Shown here: piece after piece, positions 18,337-29,549 of the stretch | How the letters are laid out: the number at the start of each line of letters is the position of its first letter | Numbering within the stretch: the stretch's first letter is position 1 | Origin: Candidatus Omnitrophota bacterium | Lineage (GTDB): Bacteria; Omnitrophota; Gorgyraeia; Zapsychrales; Zapsychraceae | Direction of reading: 5' to 3' | Assembly (NCBI GenBank): GCA_023247445.1 | Contig: JAHFGL010000018.1 | Coordinates: 1 to 43,213 of the forward strand | Length of the DNA: 43,213 nucleotides | The notes under the pieces: model-generated | What the model was told of the DNA's origin: nothing | Database searches by the model: none | Seen by the model: only the letters and a program-made list of their open reading frames with translations | Position numbers and translations under genes: made by a program

Positions 18337-18714
18337 ATGCTTAGAAACTTAAAAAAAAATAAACAAGGATTTGTTTTTGTCATGATATTGGTAACTATCA
18401 TTGTCATGATGGTTCTTGTTATTAGCGTTATTAGTGTAAATCTTACGCATACCATGGCCACCGAAGGAGAGATCAAGCGCATGCGAGCGGAACAAATAGC
18501 TTATGGATATAGAGACGTTGCCAGGCATTGGGCCCATACTACACTTGATGACCAAGATTTGATCGCAAGCAATGGTTTTAGGAGAACTGGTTTTTGGTTC
18601 AACCAATCCGTCAAAATAGATGGAACACTTTATAATCCCATTTACTATATGACAATTGATAATACTGACGGACTTTATGGGACTTCTCCACTAATAATTA
18701 ACGTTGTTTACTAA
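18337..18714 (+). CDS. PilX/GspK-like pseudopilin, paralog 1
   Basis: MLRNLKKNKQGFVFVMILVTIIVMMVLVISVISVNLTHTMATEGEIKRMRAEQ: prepilin-like G|F then hydrophobic helix. Confidence 0.7.
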   Translation: MLRNLKKNKQGFVFVMILVTIIVMMVLVISVISVNLTHTMATEGEIKRMRAEQIAYGYRDVARHWAHTTLDDQDLIASNGFRRTGFWFNQSVKIDGTLYNPIYYMTIDNTDGLYGTSPLIINVVY

Positions 18715-18758: not shown

Positions 18759-19118
18759 ATGCTTAGAAATTTAAAACGAAACAAGCAAGGATTTGTTTTT
18801 GTCATGGTTCTGGTAGTAATTATTACCATGATAATTCTTGTCGTTAGCGTTATTAGTGTAAATCTCACACATACGATGGCCACCGAAGGAGAGGTCAAGC
18901 GCATTCAAGCCGAACAATTAGCTATTGGTTACAGAGACCTTGTTGAGCAACTTGCTCATGAACAGCTAGACAATCAAAATCTTATCCAAAGTATTGGTCC
19001 AGGCACGCAATCAAACATAATGGATGGAACAACATTTAGCACTTCTTACTCCGTATCAATTACTGACAATAGCGGAATTCATGGCACCCACCCCATGACA
19101 ATTAACGTTATTTATTAA
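18759..19118 (+). CDS. PilX/GspK-like pseudopilin, paralog 2
   Basis: MLRNLKRNKQGFVFVMVLVVIITMIILVVSVISVNLTHTMATEGEVKRIQAEQ; N-terminal half near-identical to 18337-18714. Confidence 0.7.
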   Translation: MLRNLKRNKQGFVFVMVLVVIITMIILVVSVISVNLTHTMATEGEVKRIQAEQLAIGYRDLVEQLAHEQLDNQNLIQSIGPGTQSNIMDGTTFSTSYSVSITDNSGIHGTHPMTINVIY

Positions 19119-23639: not shown

Positions 23640-25373
23640 ATGGCCCGATTAAAACTCGGTGAGATCCTCATCAAACAAGGACTCATTACAGAATCACAAC
23701 TTCTCAAAGCTATCGATCACCAGAAAAAAGAAAAAGGTCGTATTGGAGAAATCTTAATCAAGCTAGGCATGATTACTGAGGAACATATGGCCTCAGCGCT
23801 TGGTTCTCAATTAGGAATCCCCTATTATTCGTCGGAAAATGCAGAATTACTCCGCCCGTTACCAAATCAAGATTTAGAAAAGGTTATCCCCGCTGACTTT
23901 GCTCGTAAAAATTTCATACTTCCACTATCTAAAAATATGAATTCCCTGACCTGTGCGGTCAGTGATCCTCTTGATTTCTTAGCGCTTGATAATTTAAAAA
24001 GAATTGTTGGGGCAGAACTAAATTTGGTTCTCGCAACCAAAACAGCCATTCAAAAAGCAATTAATGATTTTTATGTAGGCGATGTCCGCTCGGCTCCAGC
24101 TACCACGATTTTGACTCCAGAAGAAACTACTATACAGAAAAAGGACGAAGCAATTGCCTCGTCAGTAAGACAACGCGTAGCTTCTTCAGAATTAAGTCTT
24201 GATAAACTTATCGAAAAAGCTGGCGAAGCGCCTATTATTAAACTCGTTGATCTTATTATCCGTCAAGCCATTGAAGAAAGGGCCAGTGATATTCACATCG
24301 AGCCTTTTGAAAATAAAGTTCATTTACGTTACCGTATTGATGGAAATTTATATGATGTTCCCCCACCAGCTGCCCATTTAAATTTGGCTATTGTTTCCCG
24401 TATTAAAATTATTGCAAAACTCGACATTGCCGAAAAAAGATTGCCGCAAGATGGCGCTATCGCTATCAAAATTGATGATCGTATGATTGATTTACGTGTT
24501 TCAACAGCTCCCACCATCTGGGGAGAAAAAGTTGTTATGAGAATTCTTGATAAAGGGGCCGTGTCTTTGGAATTGGGACCCTTAGGCTTTGATCAAAAAC
24601 AAATTGATACGATACGCAAAGCTCTCAAATTGCCGTATGGTTTATTTTTCGTAACAGGGCCGACGGGAAGTGGAAAATCAACAACCCTATATGCGGCGTT
24701 GACGGAAACAATTGATCCCACAAAAAACATCATGACAGCGGAAGATCCTGTTGAATATAAAATCGAAGGAATTAATCAAGTCAACGTTAAATCGGAAATC
24801 GGATTAACCTTTGCCACCGCCTTAAAGGCTTTTTTACGACAAGATCCTGATATTATCATGGTAGGGGAAGTTCGAGACATTGAGACAGCATCCATTTGTG
24901 TACGAGCGGCCTTAACAGGACACTTTGTTTTAAGTACCCTTCATACCAACGATGCCGCCTCGGCCATCACACGACTTATTGACATTGGCATACCCAATTA
25001 TCTTTTGACACCGTCTTTGGTCATGATTGTTGGTCAACGTTTAGCCAGGCGCCTTTGTCAAAAATGTAAAGACCCTTACGAGCCGACTCCCGACCAACAT
25101 GGAAATATAAAATTCGAAAGCGATCTTATTTACCGACCCAAAGGATGTGAGGCTTGTAATGGCTCAGGATTCCGAGGACGCGTTGTTGTGGCCGAAGTTC
25201 TCTTAGTCACGGAAGATATTAAAGCCATTATCTCCCGAGGAGGAACCTACACAGAAATTAAAGATGCCGCGCGCAAAAGTGGAATGACAACAATTTTTGA
25301 ATCTGGAATAAAATTAGTTAATAAAGGCTTTACCAGTTTCGAGGAAATCTGTAGAGTTAGCACCGAAGACTAG
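23640..25373 (+). CDS. GspE/PilB-family assembly ATPase with N-terminal MshEN-like domain
   Basis: Walker A GPTGSGKSTTLYAAL, Asp box DPIIMVGEVRD-like (DPDIIMVGEVRDIETA), CQKCKD...CEACNGSGFRGR; N-terminus RLKLGEILIKQGLITESQLLKAIDHQ...GRIGEILIKLGMITEEHMASALGSQLGIPY. Confidence 0.96.
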   Translation: MARLKLGEILIKQGLITESQLLKAIDHQKKEKGRIGEILIKLGMITEEHMASALGSQLGIPYYSSENAELLRPLPNQDLEKVIPADFARKNFILPLSKNMNSLTCAVSDPLDFLALDNLKRIVGAELNLVLATKTAIQKAINDFYVGDVRSAPATTILTPEETTIQKKDEAIASSVRQRVASSELSLDKLIEKAGEAPIIKLVDLIIRQAIEERASDIHIEPFENKVHLRYRIDGNLYDVPPPAAHLNLAIVSRIKIIAKLDIAEKRLPQDGAIAIKIDDRMIDLRVSTAPTIWGEKVVMRILDKGAVSLELGPLGFDQKQIDTIRKALKLPYGLFFVTGPTGSGKSTTLYAALTETIDPTKNIMTAEDPVEYKIEGINQVNVKSEIGLTFATALKAFLRQDPDIIMVGEVRDIETASICVRAALTGHFVLSTLHTNDAASAITRLIDIGIPNYLLTPSLVMIVGQRLARRLCQKCKDPYEPTPDQHGNIKFESDLIYRPKGCEACNGSGFRGRVVVAEVLLVTEDIKAIISRGGTYTEIKDAARKSGMTTIFESGIKLVNKGFTSFEEICRVSTED

Positions 25374-25393: not shown

Positions 25394-26689
25394 TTGCCAA
25401 AATTTTCTTGTGTTGTCAAAGATAAAGAGGGAAAAGCCTATAAATATGTTGTCGATGCCCCCACTCAAAAAGAGATAGTTGAAAAACTACAAAAACAAGA
25501 ATATTTTATTGTTAGTATTAAAGAAATTGTATCCGCCTCTTCAACTTCCCCAGCCAGCAAACAACAGCCGGCGATCGAGAAGAAAAGTCAGATTCAATTT
25601 AAAAATAAAAGAAAATTTAGTCACAATAAAACAAAGCTTGCTGATCTTTTGGTTTTCGCCCGTCAATTGGCAACCATGCTTGAATCAGGCGTTACATTGA
25701 CCCGCAGCTTAGATGTTATTCAATCACAAATTCAAAGTAAGCAATTTTTCAATGTTGTTGTTCAGGTTAAAAAAGATGTTGAGCAAGGCTTGTCTTTAAG
25801 TCAATCATTAGCCAAGCATCCCAAAGTTTTTAACCAATTTTGGATCAGTCTCAGTGAAGTCGGGGAAGCTTCTGGAACCATTCCGATTGTTTTAAACAAA
25901 TTAACTTTTTATCTGGAGCAACAGTCTTCATTTAAAGCGACCATTATTTCCGGAGTCTTGTACCCCATAATCTTGTTCACAGTTTCCATGGGAGCCGTTG
26001 TCTTTTTTGCCTTATTTGTTGGTCCACGTTTTGAATCTATATTTTCTTCAATGAATGTGGCACTTCCTTTAATTACGATTGTTCTTTTAGCTACTTTTAA
26101 GTTTATTAAAAGTAATCTCATCATTATCGTAGGAGTTTTAGCTGGCATCATTTTCTTTTTGGGTCAATATATCAAAACAAGTAGTGGTCGTATTGCCTTT
26201 GAAAGATTCTTATTTAATCTACCTACAGCCGGTGAAATCTTCAAACTTATCATCGTGGAACGATTTTCCTCTCAAATGGCGATTCTTTTAGATGCGGGGG
26301 TTCCGATTCTTTACGCGCTAGATATTTCAGAACGATTAGTTGATAACAAAATCTGCTCACAAATTGTCAACAATATAAAGGAAGACGTCCGAAAAGGAGA
26401 GCTATTGGTATCCCCCATGGAAAAAAGTGGATTTTTTCCTCCTATGTGTATTCAAATGATTATGGTAGGTGAGGAGACAGGTGAGTTAAGTAAAATGCTA
26501 AAACATGTTGCTAAATTTTACCAAACTGAAGTTGAAACGTTTATGAAACGTTTTGCCACCATCATTGAACCATTTATGCTTGTTTTTATGGGTTTTGTCA
26601 TTGGAACCATTGTTCTGGCAATGTTTTTACCATTATTTAATATTGCCCAACTTGGGGGTGGGACTGGAGCCGGCCCAGCTCCTCAATAG
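25394..26689 (+). CDS. GspF/PilC-family inner-membrane platform protein (TTG start)
   Basis: LLVFARQLATMLESGVTLTRSLDVI; FWISLSEVGEASGTIPIVLNKLTFYLEQQ; MIMVGEETGELSKMLKHVAKFYQTEVE; AAAGGAG before TTG. Confidence 0.95.
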   Translation: MPKFSCVVKDKEGKAYKYVVDAPTQKEIVEKLQKQEYFIVSIKEIVSASSTSPASKQQPAIEKKSQIQFKNKRKFSHNKTKLADLLVFARQLATMLESGVTLTRSLDVIQSQIQSKQFFNVVVQVKKDVEQGLSLSQSLAKHPKVFNQFWISLSEVGEASGTIPIVLNKLTFYLEQQSSFKATIISGVLYPIILFTVSMGAVVFFALFVGPRFESIFSSMNVALPLITIVLLATFKFIKSNLIIIVGVLAGIIFFLGQYIKTSSGRIAFERFLFNLPTAGEIFKLIIVERFSSQMAILLDAGVPILYALDISERLVDNKICSQIVNNIKEDVRKGELLVSPMEKSGFFPPMCIQMIMVGEETGELSKMLKHVAKFYQTEVETFMKRFATIIEPFMLVFMGFVIGTIVLAMFLPLFNIAQLGGGTGAGPAPQ

Positions 26690-26798: not shown

Positions 26799-26827
26799 TT
26801 GACAATCTAAATTTAGTGTGTTATACA
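26799..26827 (+). promoter_or_regulatory. sigma70-type promoter candidate TTGACA-N17-TATACA driving the riboswitch leader
   Basis: TTGACA 26799-26804, TATACA 26822-26827; predicted +1 about 26834, just 5' of the aptamer. Confidence 0.7.
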
Positions 26828-26848
26828 TTCTGTAGAAAGAAGTTTAGA

Positions 26849-26961
26849 GGTTATTGCAAAACGTAAACTACCCGTAAGGGTAGGACACAAAGCTATAAGG
26901 GCCCTAGCATTAAGGGATTTAAATATAAAAAAGTTGTTAGGGTAGCCAGTTGCCATTAGCC
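26849..26961 (+). ncRNA. c-di-GMP-I (GEMM-I) riboswitch aptamer
   Basis: GGUUAUUGCAAAACGUAAA-CUACCC-GUAA-GGGUAG-GACACAAAGC-UAUAAGGGCCCUAGCA...UGUUAGGG-UAGCCAGUUGCCAUUAGCC: P1 GGUUAUUGCAA/UUGCCAUUAGCC, GNRA-capped stem CUACCC/GGGUAG, conserved GGACRCAAAGC, second stem CCCUAGCA/UGUUAGGG, conserved GUAGCCAGUUGCC. Confidence 0.92.
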
Positions 26962-26974
26962 AAATTATTGTGGA

Positions 26975-27007
26975 CCTATTCTACGGGATGTGTGGAATGG
27001 GTTTTTT
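26975..27007 (+). terminator. rho-independent terminator, probable riboswitch expression platform
   Basis: CCTATTCT (26975-26982) / GGAATGGG (26994-27001) followed by TTTTTT, immediately after the aptamer. Confidence 0.8.
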
Positions 27008-27036: not shown

Positions 27037-27093
27037 TTGACACAAGAACTCCACAGAAGTAGCAAAAGTAGCTTCTGGAGCTTTTGTGGGTAT
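27037..27093 (+). pseudogene. decayed 3' fragment of a pilin gene inside the riboswitch leader
   Basis: Colinear with the 3' end of 27156-27581: TCCACAG and GGAGCTTTTGTGGGTAT occur in both at the same spacing (20 nt between) and at a constant offset of 481 bp. Confidence 0.65.
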
Positions 27094-27155: not shown

Positions 27156-27581
27156 ATGAATCTTAATAAAAAAAGTGGTTTTACCTTACTTGAAATTATC
27201 ATTGTTATCATCATTGTAGGTGTTTTAGCAAGTTTGGCTCTACCTCGATTCTTCAGTACAGTTGAGTTTTCAAGAAGTACTGAAGCTTTAACCTCGATGA
27301 CAGCCTTAAGACAATCTCTAGAAAGATGCTACCTAGCTAACGCTGGAAGCTATACTGGGACAACTCCTTGTCTTATTACTAATCTCGATCTTGAAGATCC
27401 AGGTACTTCTCCTGGAAATCACTTTACTTATACTATTTCGGGGCAATCTGCAACCGGGTATACAGTTTTAGCAACAAGAAATACACGAGATGGTGGATCC
27501 GCGACTGGTAAAATTACGTTAACACAGACATCCACAGGCGTAACACGAACAGGTGAAGGAGCTTTTGTGGGTATCAAATAA
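27156..27581 (+). CDS. type IV pilin-like/major pseudopilin
   Basis: KKSGFTLLEIIIVIIIVGVLASLALPRFFSTVE: canonical prepilin G|FTLLE motif; CYLANAGSYTGTTPC disulfide-like pair. Confidence 0.92.
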   Translation: MNLNKKSGFTLLEIIIVIIIVGVLASLALPRFFSTVEFSRSTEALTSMTALRQSLERCYLANAGSYTGTTPCLITNLDLEDPGTSPGNHFTYTISGQSATGYTVLATRNTRDGGSATGKITLTQTSTGVTRTGEGAFVGIK

Positions 27582-27609
27582 CTTGTTCTTTAAATAAATG
27601 CAGGATAAC

Positions 27610-27655
27610 AAGCAACATCGAAGTTTTGCAAGTTAAAGCTTCGATGTTGCTTTTA
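27610..27655 (+). terminator. rho-independent terminator after first pilin gene
   Basis: AAGCAACATCGAAG (27610-27623) / CTTCGATGTTGCTT (27639-27652) perfect 14-bp stem followed by TTT. Confidence 0.85.
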
Positions 27656-27691
27656 TAGATAAAAATAGAAGTTGAGGTGGGTAACCAAATT

Positions 27692-28090
27692 ATGCTTCGA
27701 AATACTTACAATAAACACTCAGAAAATGCTTTTACACTTATGGAGATCATTATTGTTATTATTGTTGTTAGCTCTATTGTTTCCATGGCCTTGCCAAGAT
27801 ATTTTAGTAGTACAGAAAAAGTAAAATCATCCGAAGCCTTCCAAATTCTTGATGTTTTACGTAGTGCACAAGTTGCGTTTAAGGCTGAAACTGGTGGCTA
27901 TGCCAACAGTGCCTCCAGCTTAGATGCTACTGTCCCAACTTCAAAAAACTTTGACCCCCCAACCGTCAGCACGACCGATCCTATTGTAAGCATCGTACGA
28001 AAAAGTTCATACACTTTAAATATCTTTGAGAATGGAACCATTACTTGTACGGGAGGAGCTGCTGGCTTATGTACAAAGCTGGGTTATTAA
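27692..28090 (+). CDS. type IV pilin-like/pseudopilin with Ala(-1)
   Basis: MLRNTYNKHSENAFTLMEIIIVIIVVSSIVSMALPRYFSSTEKVK; ATG at 27692 chosen over the in-frame GTG at 27677. Confidence 0.85.
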   Translation: MLRNTYNKHSENAFTLMEIIIVIIVVSSIVSMALPRYFSSTEKVKSSEAFQILDVLRSAQVAFKAETGGYANSASSLDATVPTSKNFDPPTVSTTDPIVSIVRKSSYTLNIFENGTITCTGGAAGLCTKLGY

Positions 28091-28101
28091 AGCTAAAAAT
28101 T

Positions 28102-28560
28102 ATGAATAAAAAAATGAAAGCTGGATTTACCTTATTAGAAATTATTATTGTCGTGGTTCTTTTGGGAATCATTGCAGGATTTGCTCTACCTAACTACCAA
28201 AAATCTATTCGTAAAGCCCACGAAAGAGATGCGATCGTACAACTCTCTTCGTTACACGCAACTAATTTAATGTACAACGCACAAGATGGTGGATTTTTAC
28301 CAGGGACTCTAGATATAACAGGAATCAATACTGGATTAGGAATAAATATTATCGCCAATGGTATGACATACGCTTATGTAGCCGGGGCCTCAAAACCAAC
28401 AACATTTTCCGCAACCGCAGTTTGGGATGAAAGTGGGACAACGAATGATTTTACAGCTCGTATTAATGAAAAACCCATCGATCCCACCAATGCCACAGCA
28501 GCGAATAGAAATCCATGCTGTTTTGCTGGAACTTGTCCATCTCTTTTAAATTGCTCTTAA
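28102..28560 (+). CDS. type IV pilin-like/pseudopilin
   Basis: MNKKMKAGFTLLEIIIVVVLLGIIAGFALPNYQKSIRKAHERDAIVQL; ORF-track start at 28045 overlaps the preceding gene. Confidence 0.9.
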   Translation: MNKKMKAGFTLLEIIIVVVLLGIIAGFALPNYQKSIRKAHERDAIVQLSSLHATNLMYNAQDGGFLPGTLDITGINTGLGINIIANGMTYAYVAGASKPTTFSATAVWDESGTTNDFTARINEKPIDPTNATAANRNPCCFAGTCPSLLNCS

Positions 28561-28581
28561 AGTAAAGGAATTACGCCAGCG

Positions 28582-28920
28582 ATGCTACGAATTCAAAAAA
28601 AGAAGGGGGCAGCTTCAATGATCGAAGTTATTATTTCCGCAATTATTTTTATCATCGCGACCTACGGAATCCTAACAACAATTTCAATGATGCGTCCCCA
28701 GAGTGGCGAGTCAGCAAGAAAGTTAGCGGCTGCTTATATAGGGAAACAAATGCTTGATGATTTACGCGGAAAAGTTGATGGCCGGACCTGGGACAGCGTC
28801 AATAGTGACTTAACTGTTGGGAACCATAATCGCACGATTGGTAACTACTTTGTAGCTTGGACAGTTGTAAACACAAGTGGAGGAAATCTGCGATACGTTA
28901 ATATGACAATCGATTATTAA
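28582..28920 (+). CDS. PilV/GspI-like minor pseudopilin
   Basis: MLRIQKKKGAASMIEVIISAIIFIIATYGILTTISMMRP. Confidence 0.78.
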   Translation: MLRIQKKKGAASMIEVIISAIIFIIATYGILTTISMMRPQSGESARKLAAAYIGKQMLDDLRGKVDGRTWDSVNSDLTVGNHNRTIGNYFVAWTVVNTSGGNLRYVNMTIDY

Positions 28921-28940
28921 GGCTACTGGTTAAATAAAAT

Positions 28941-29549
28941 ATGTCAAATAAAGGTATGACCTTAACAGAGCTTATCGTTTCTAGCATCCTCGTTGGTATT
29001 GTGATGGTAGGGATTGCTTCGTTTAGCTCGGCAATCAAACAAATTCAAACGACAAATGAAAAATCAACGCTTCTTGAAATACGAACCGCTGCCGCTATTA
29101 ACCACATTAGAAGAAGTGCTGTTCAAGCTGTAGGTTACCAAGATGATCCTGGGATAATCACCTCAGCAACAGGGGCTTCACCAGCCTATTTTTCTTTTCG
29201 CCAAGATCGAAACAATACTCCCAATAATTTTAGCGATGATACATGGGTCATCTATTCCGATGGTGGAATTGCTGGTCGAATGTATACCTGCACTCAAGAC
29301 GCAACAGCTGGTCCCGTTCCAAATTCGGGTATAGGTGGGGGTTGCGCCATTGCGACAAATTTAACCTTGTTACAAAATATTTCAACAATAAGCTATAGTC
29401 GAGTAACTGACGACGCTAGCTCAAATTTAAATCTTTATTTTGAAATAAATCTAACCACAATGGACGATATTTCCAAACCTTACCACCCTGTTAATAATCC
29501 CAAATATACCGTCAATACACGCATTATCCCACCTTCTCATAGCTGGTAA
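28941..29549 (+). CDS. PilW/GspJ-like minor pseudopilin
   Basis: MSNKGMTLTELIVSSILVGIVMVGIASFSSAIKQIQ; G|M-T-L-T-E prepilin motif. Confidence 0.82.
   Translation: MSNKGMTLTELIVSSILVGIVMVGIASFSSAIKQIQTTNEKSTLLEIRTAAAINHIRRSAVQAVGYQDDPGIITSATGASPAYFSFRQDRNNTPNNFSDDTWVIYSDGGIAGRMYTCTQDATAGPVPNSGIGGGCAIATNLTLLQNISTISYSRVTDDASSNLNLYFEINLTTMDDISKPYHPVNNPKYTVNTRIIPPSHSW

Follow-up and report, generated by a model that had tools for sequence, protein, structure and literature searches.

A riboswitch-family leader ahead of pilin genes

The window (the whole stretch of 43,213 nucleotides analysed) is part of an Omnitrophota metagenome-assembled genome of 2.29 Mb in 75 contigs. The closest relatives of its PilB belong to Candidatus Omnitrophota / Omnitrophica WOR_2. 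It encodes a type IV pilus / type II secretion-like operon that also includes PilM, PilO, a secretin and PilB/GspE. Only a tRNA-Ala and a c-di-GMP-I riboswitch (RF01051) scored above the Rfam thresholds when the window was scanned for RNA matches. Gene calls and profile matches place the riboswitch between the PilC/GspF gene (25394-26689) and five pilin-like genes (27156-29549). The first controlled gene (27156-27581, forward strand) encodes a type IV pilin or GspG-like major pseudopilin (PF07963, PF16732, TIGR01710, TIGR02532). Four further pilin-like genes on this strand (27677-28090, 28045-28560, 28582-28920 and 28941-29549) are presumed to share its transcript. Three of them match pilin or N-methylation models; no such match was found for gene 28582-28920, which is pilin-like by its N-terminus and position. 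An earlier sequence-only reading had named the pilin and pseudopilin genes as the target, and the gene calls and orthologous leaders back this assignment.

The PilB ATPase (23640-25370) begins with an MshEN c-di-GMP-binding domain (PF05157; NF053729, a c-di-GMP motif, at 64.3 bits against a cut-off of 38), a predicted second, protein-level c-di-GMP input in the operon of the riboswitch. Elsewhere in the window, the adjacent genes 18337-18714 and 18759-19118 have nearly identical N-termini (MLRNLK(K/R)NKQGFVFVM...); a gene for a minor pilus component was probably duplicated here recently.

The RNA element is a real leader of the GEMM-I riboswitch family. The RF01051 match (26852-26957, forward strand) spans the full model (1-87) with 53.1 bits (E 1e-7), clearing the curated cut-off of 35 bits, and it falls where the sequence-only reading had expected it (approximately 26849-26961). 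With P1 (GGUUA, 26849-26853, pairing with UAGCC, 26957-26961), supported by the RF01051 match and folds, the aptamer occupies 26849-26961. The parts listed in that reading are present, i.e., the P2 hairpin (CUACCC-GUAA-GGGUAG with a GNRA loop, 26868-26883), the core GGACACAAAGC, P3 and GUAGCCAGUUGCC. The alignment also places the J2/3 pocket strand (A-C44-A45-C46-A47-A-A) at 26885-26891, part of the predicted duplex with 26968-26987. Pocket residues A47 (A26889), C92 (C26953) and G21-C46 (G26863-C26888) are all kept. In Vc2, C92 pairs with the second G of c-di-GMP. The RF03167 family (c-di-GMP-I-GGC) fits some copies in the genome better, but was rejected for the window copy.

Upstream lies a predicted promoter (TTGACA, 26799-26804, a 17-nt spacer and TATACA, 26822-26827). 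The leader had been credited with a promoter of its own, and most orthologous leaders keep the pattern TTGAC(A)...TATG(T/C)TATAC. It is followed by GUAGAA (26832-26837), which is complementary to UUCUAC in the terminator arm. In most orthologous leaders GUAGAA lies 5 nt from TATAC, and a similar element occurs in some paralogs. Given this fixed spacing and the paralogous occurrences, GUAGAA is probably a start-site or discriminator element, perhaps only partly transcribed, and possibly one used in Omnitrophota promoters. Its role is ambiguous: among the orthologs, its pairing with UUCUAC is stronger in cis than when permuted (-7.8 versus -6.4 ± 0.34, p 1e-4). If transcription starts near 26834, the RNA would contain GUAGAA only in part.

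The base at position 20 and the ligand

In the Infernal alignment, position 20 (Vc2 numbering) is C26862, at model position 11, the G20 column. The sequence-only reading had taken the G of CGUAAAC for G20, a miscount of G21 (26863), which pairs with C46 (26888); U22 pairs with A45, in place of C22-G45. An ungapped ortholog comparison concurs (UUG-CCAAAG-GUAAAC in L123 versus UUG-CAAAAC-GUAAAC in the window). The argument that this base favours c-di-GMP over cGAMP was thus built on a misread base. C26862 is neither the G20 of the c-di-GMP type nor the A20 of the GEMM-Ib (cGAMP) type. The RF01051 model accommodates C20, and it is the claim of a c-di-GMP sensor that is lowered, not family membership.

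The base at position 20 was counted in 130 Omnitrophota copies with recognisable 3' motifs, giving G in 116, C in eight, A in five and U in one; the share of C in this census is enriched by targeted search (four of the eight came only from a C20-targeted pattern). The other four (the window, G005, G049 and G053) are also within the untargeted RF01051 listing, so C20 accounts for a few percent. A47 is invariant (130/130), and the C20 and U20 copies all keep both A47 and C92. With the targeted pattern, 11 C20 aptamer-like sequences were located in eight genomes of the class (G155 has three, G206 two), and RF01051 also calls nine of these sequences. C20 thus occurs naturally and repeatedly, and a mere error is an unlikely explanation for the window base. 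The orthologous pilin leaders have G at this position, except for C in the window and U in G017/L121.

The genome of the window has ten RF01051 copies, with G at position 20 in seven, C in the window copy and A in two cGAMP-type aptamers (L001 and L010). The gene under L001 resembles the G005 gene under a C20 copy (L013/L158), such that position 20 varies at what is apparently one locus. GEMM-I variants were reportedly a subject of the 2017 literature.

Changing nucleotide 20 from A to G in a Geobacter aptamer shifts selectivity from cGAMP to c-di-GMP (PMC6456294), and mutation of G20 in Vc2 was reported to weaken c-di-GMP binding approximately 30,000-fold (PMC4744006). G20 is less conserved than A47, and wild-type Vc2 binds c-di-GMP with a KD of 0.011 nM (PMC9049102). 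A loss of this size, if applied to that value, would give a KD of about 0.3 uM, which is still plausible in cells. The genome encodes ten GGDEF domains, nine with Asp and one (L186) with Asn at the GHxxGD position. None of the ten is of the Ser/Thr Hypr form, and no SMODS cyclase was found in the genome. Based on the affinity arithmetic, this enzyme set and the MshEN domain of PilB, the ligand is most likely still c-di-GMP, presumably bound with an affinity reduced through C20. L186 (G000:C27:18962-19411) has GYREGN in place of GHxxGD, at the position that differs in Hypr enzymes, and the product of this GGDEF protein is possibly altered.

A terminator arm antisense to the ligand-contact strand

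Downstream of the aptamer, an intrinsic terminator spans 26972-27007 and closes with U6 (-16.9 kcal/mol, z -5.5 relative to dinucleotide shuffles). Its 3' arm, H (26990-27001, with U6 at 27002-27007), is supported by folds and lies at the same place in orthologs. The terminator and its U6 had been recognized from the letters with a stem of 8 bp; the stem is longer, with 14 pairs if U's are counted. The sequence-only reading missed the antisense match of the terminator arm with the aptamer core. The switching strand T (UUGUG-ga-CCUAUUC-UACGGG, 26968-26987) comprises the terminator 5' arm and part of the loop. This arm, UUGUGgaCCUAUUCUACGGG, is antisense to CCCGUAAGGGUAGGACACAA (26871-26890), a target that spans the end of the P2 5' strand, the loop, the P2 3' strand and the J2/3 pocket strand. 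The T-aptamer duplex reaches -24.4 kcal/mol (z -6.5).

For transcripts that begin at 26832 and end at 26990-26996, the minimum free energy (MFE) structure is the antisense fold (-38.0 kcal/mol), a result that depends on the start site, since the choice of fold changes with GUAGAA: the truncated RNA of the window with 5' GUAGAA prefers the intact aptamer, with GUAGAA pairing with T. The MFE structure of the full-length RNA is aptamer plus terminator (-48.4 kcal/mol). Because the terminator is the full-length MFE structure even without ligand, switching must be kinetic. By sequence, folds and covariation, terminator and antiterminator would be mutually exclusive and the antiterminator would disrupt the ligand-binding fold, the arrangement expected of a terminator-type strand-exchange riboswitch.

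RF01051 matches were found in all 58 relatives searched (above the cut-off in 57), and Omnitrophota genomes carry up to 14 GEMM-I copies each. The PilC-pilin junction holds the aptamer in 16 genomes of the family (L117, L118, L120-L128, L130, L133, L139, L141 and L142) and in the order-level loci L051 and L058. A search for the same leader in relatives had been proposed as a check, and it is present across most of the family, promoter and terminator included, with a near-invariant terminator arm (CCUAUUC-UAC) in most orthologous leaders. At ten orthologous loci lacking a regex match, an Rfam scan at relaxed threshold gave a single sub-threshold match (L136, 32.1 bits), and thus the leader is absent, degenerate or past the contig end there.

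In 17 orthologs, T pairs better with its own P2/J2/3 than with those of others (-20.6 versus -18.6 ± 0.5 kcal/mol, 0/20000 permutations, uncorrected for kinship). The same holds for the terminator-loop part of T (-7.5 versus -5.6 ± 0.43, 0/20000 permutations, likewise uncorrected). The loop part is free of the constraint of the terminator stem. In alignment A2, which leaves out L118 (a one-base insertion), 91.3% of cells are paired versus 36-51% in slid controls, and four pairs show compensatory changes (nine cells; C-G/U-A and U-A/C-G). Model R1 was set aside, having retained just 8 base pairs. Toehold-specific covariation (A45/G45 versus U/C) was not significant (p 0.08).

A long 5' end masked the antisense fold in several orthologs, and the MFE runs were therefore repeated without the start-site element. 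With that element omitted, 15 of 17 orthologs have the antisense fold as MFE structure when the RNA ends between T and H, the exceptions being L128 and L051. At full length, the terminator forms with P2 intact in 14 of 17. Other Omnitrophota GEMM-I copies have a P2/J2/3-antisense terminator arm at z < -2 in 39% of cases, versus 6% for a P1-strand control, and cis pairing beats permuted pairing in 84 non-redundant Omnitrophota copies (z -4.1, uncorrected for kinship). The concern of shared ancestry is lessened, though not removed, by the slid control and by the finding of the arm in non-orthologous copies. Viral contigs served as the non-Omnitrophota control, and the P2-antisense arm was present in none of five usable copies, too few to indicate restriction to the phylum.

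A second GEMM-I copy in the genome of the window (L006, G000:C10:118100-118178) precedes another pilin and a PilM-like gene, and has a P2-antisense terminator arm too.

Proposed OFF switch and alternative readings

Since T is antisense to the aptamer and this pairing covaries, we predict an OFF switch. As T emerges 5' to 3', UUGUG would be first to reach the J2/3 strand (CACAA), which in the free aptamer would be single-stranded and serve as a toehold. CCUAUUC could then displace the P2 5' strand by branch migration, and the resulting antiterminator would hold T off H, allowing the polymerase to read into the pilin genes (ON, ligand absent). Bound ligand would engage C46 and A47 and clamp P2 docking, hiding the toehold and blocking invasion, such that T would be free to pair with H and form the terminator (OFF). 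On balance we favour a transcriptional OFF switch that responds to c-di-GMP at lower affinity and, from its own promoter, sets the pilin level apart from the pilus machine. The aptamer, the terminator and the complementarity and covariation of T with the aptamer form its basis, from which we infer direction, ligand, affinity and kinetics. The use of c-di-GMP by this genome (ten GGDEF domains, MshEN in PilB) counts for this reading. Against it counts that C20 is not the known c-di-GMP base. Pilus ATPases of the MshEN type are generally activated by c-di-GMP binding, with which an OFF switch on pilins is less easily reconciled.

The MshEN domain of PilB is one reason to consider the opposite direction, in which ligand binding by the aptamer would place the 5' end (CUGUAGAA) beside T, an extra outer helix would sequester UUCUAC and block the terminator, and the terminator would form without ligand. 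This ON switch, which we regard as rather unlikely, would account for the covarying GUAGAA-UUCUAC complementarity (p 1e-4), and its outer-helix fold is the MFE structure for RNA ending at 26984 and for RNA extended at the 5' side; the Geobacter pilM riboswitch is an ON switch (PMC9262584). However, it leaves the covariation of T with P2/J2/3 unexplained, and GUAGAA is probably the promoter element described above.

The remaining alternatives turn on position 20. If this is the specificity base, as the Geobacter exchange suggests, the C20 (and U20) aptamers may sense another cyclic dinucleotide or a related nucleotide. The recurrence of C20 in eight genomes (three times in one), the apparently orthologous gene with A20 here and C20 in G005, and the retention of A47 and C92 in every C20/U20 copy all speak for this; yet the genes behind C20 copies are of the same kinds as those behind G20 copies (surface proteins, pilins), G, C and U are mixed among orthologous pilin leaders, and the genome lacks a SMODS cyclase and a Ser/Thr Hypr GGDEF. 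We consider it unlikely. Quite unlikely, in our view, is the broader proposal of a natural C20 (and U20) GEMM-I subclass with a ligand that is neither c-di-GMP nor cGAMP, combined with a platform used throughout the Omnitrophota, where the terminator arm attacks the ligand-contact strand as its toehold. We also consider it quite unlikely that C20 reflects loss of function or an assembly error, leaving an unresponsive aptamer and a constitutive attenuator. Such a reading could draw on the fact that this is one base in one MAG contig, on the cost of G20 mutation in Vc2 and on the natural GEMM-I Bc1, which is unresponsive to c-di-GMP in vivo (PMC11218506), but the other features of aptamer and platform are intact, T still matches its own P2, and C20 is found again in other genomes.

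Compared with Vc2 and Cd1 (c-di-GMP-I, RF01051), the window leader shares the aptamer fold, GNRA loop, A47, C92, G21-C46 and C44, but has C20 instead of the G20 of that class. Cd1 likewise uses a transcription terminator; its antiterminator involves its own C87/G86 at the aptamer 3' side (PMC9262584), whereas the one predicted here pairs with J2/3 and P2. GEMM-Ib (cGAMP) riboswitches of Geobacter, including pilM, have the same fold and pilus genes among their targets, and differ by A20. Control of pilus genes by GEMM-I is therefore already known from pilM (PMC9262584), an ON switch with its switching strand before its A strand, in contrast to the predicted OFF switch of the window. In neither the Cd1 nor the pilM platform (PMC9262584) does a terminator arm lying downstream invade J2/3 and P2. 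In strand-exchange riboswitches (group 3, PMC10907184), e.g., ZMP, a downstream strand also invades an aptamer helix via a toehold; in the window, the predicted toehold is the ligand-contact strand itself, and invasion would build an antiterminator rather than a terminator. A literature search of limited coverage found no link between Omnitrophota and riboswitches. As far as this partial literature shows, only the C20 pocket and the P2/J2/3-antisense terminator arm are new.

Whether a GEMM-I aptamer recognises c-di-GMP or cGAMP is decided by base 20, and natural C20 copies allow the effect of a pyrimidine to be tested directly. The platform hints at a design that may be general in a little-studied phylum, in which the terminator arm reads the ligand-contact strand and sensing and switching involve the same nucleotides. 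Under the favoured reading, the pilins would gain a c-di-GMP input separate from that of the motor ATPase of the operon, which carries a c-di-GMP-binding domain itself.

We also identified an extra strong hairpin (27041-27088, -20.6 kcal/mol, z -3.1) downstream of the terminator and ahead of the pilin start codon; it is not evident in relatives and is possibly an RNA-stability or processing element.
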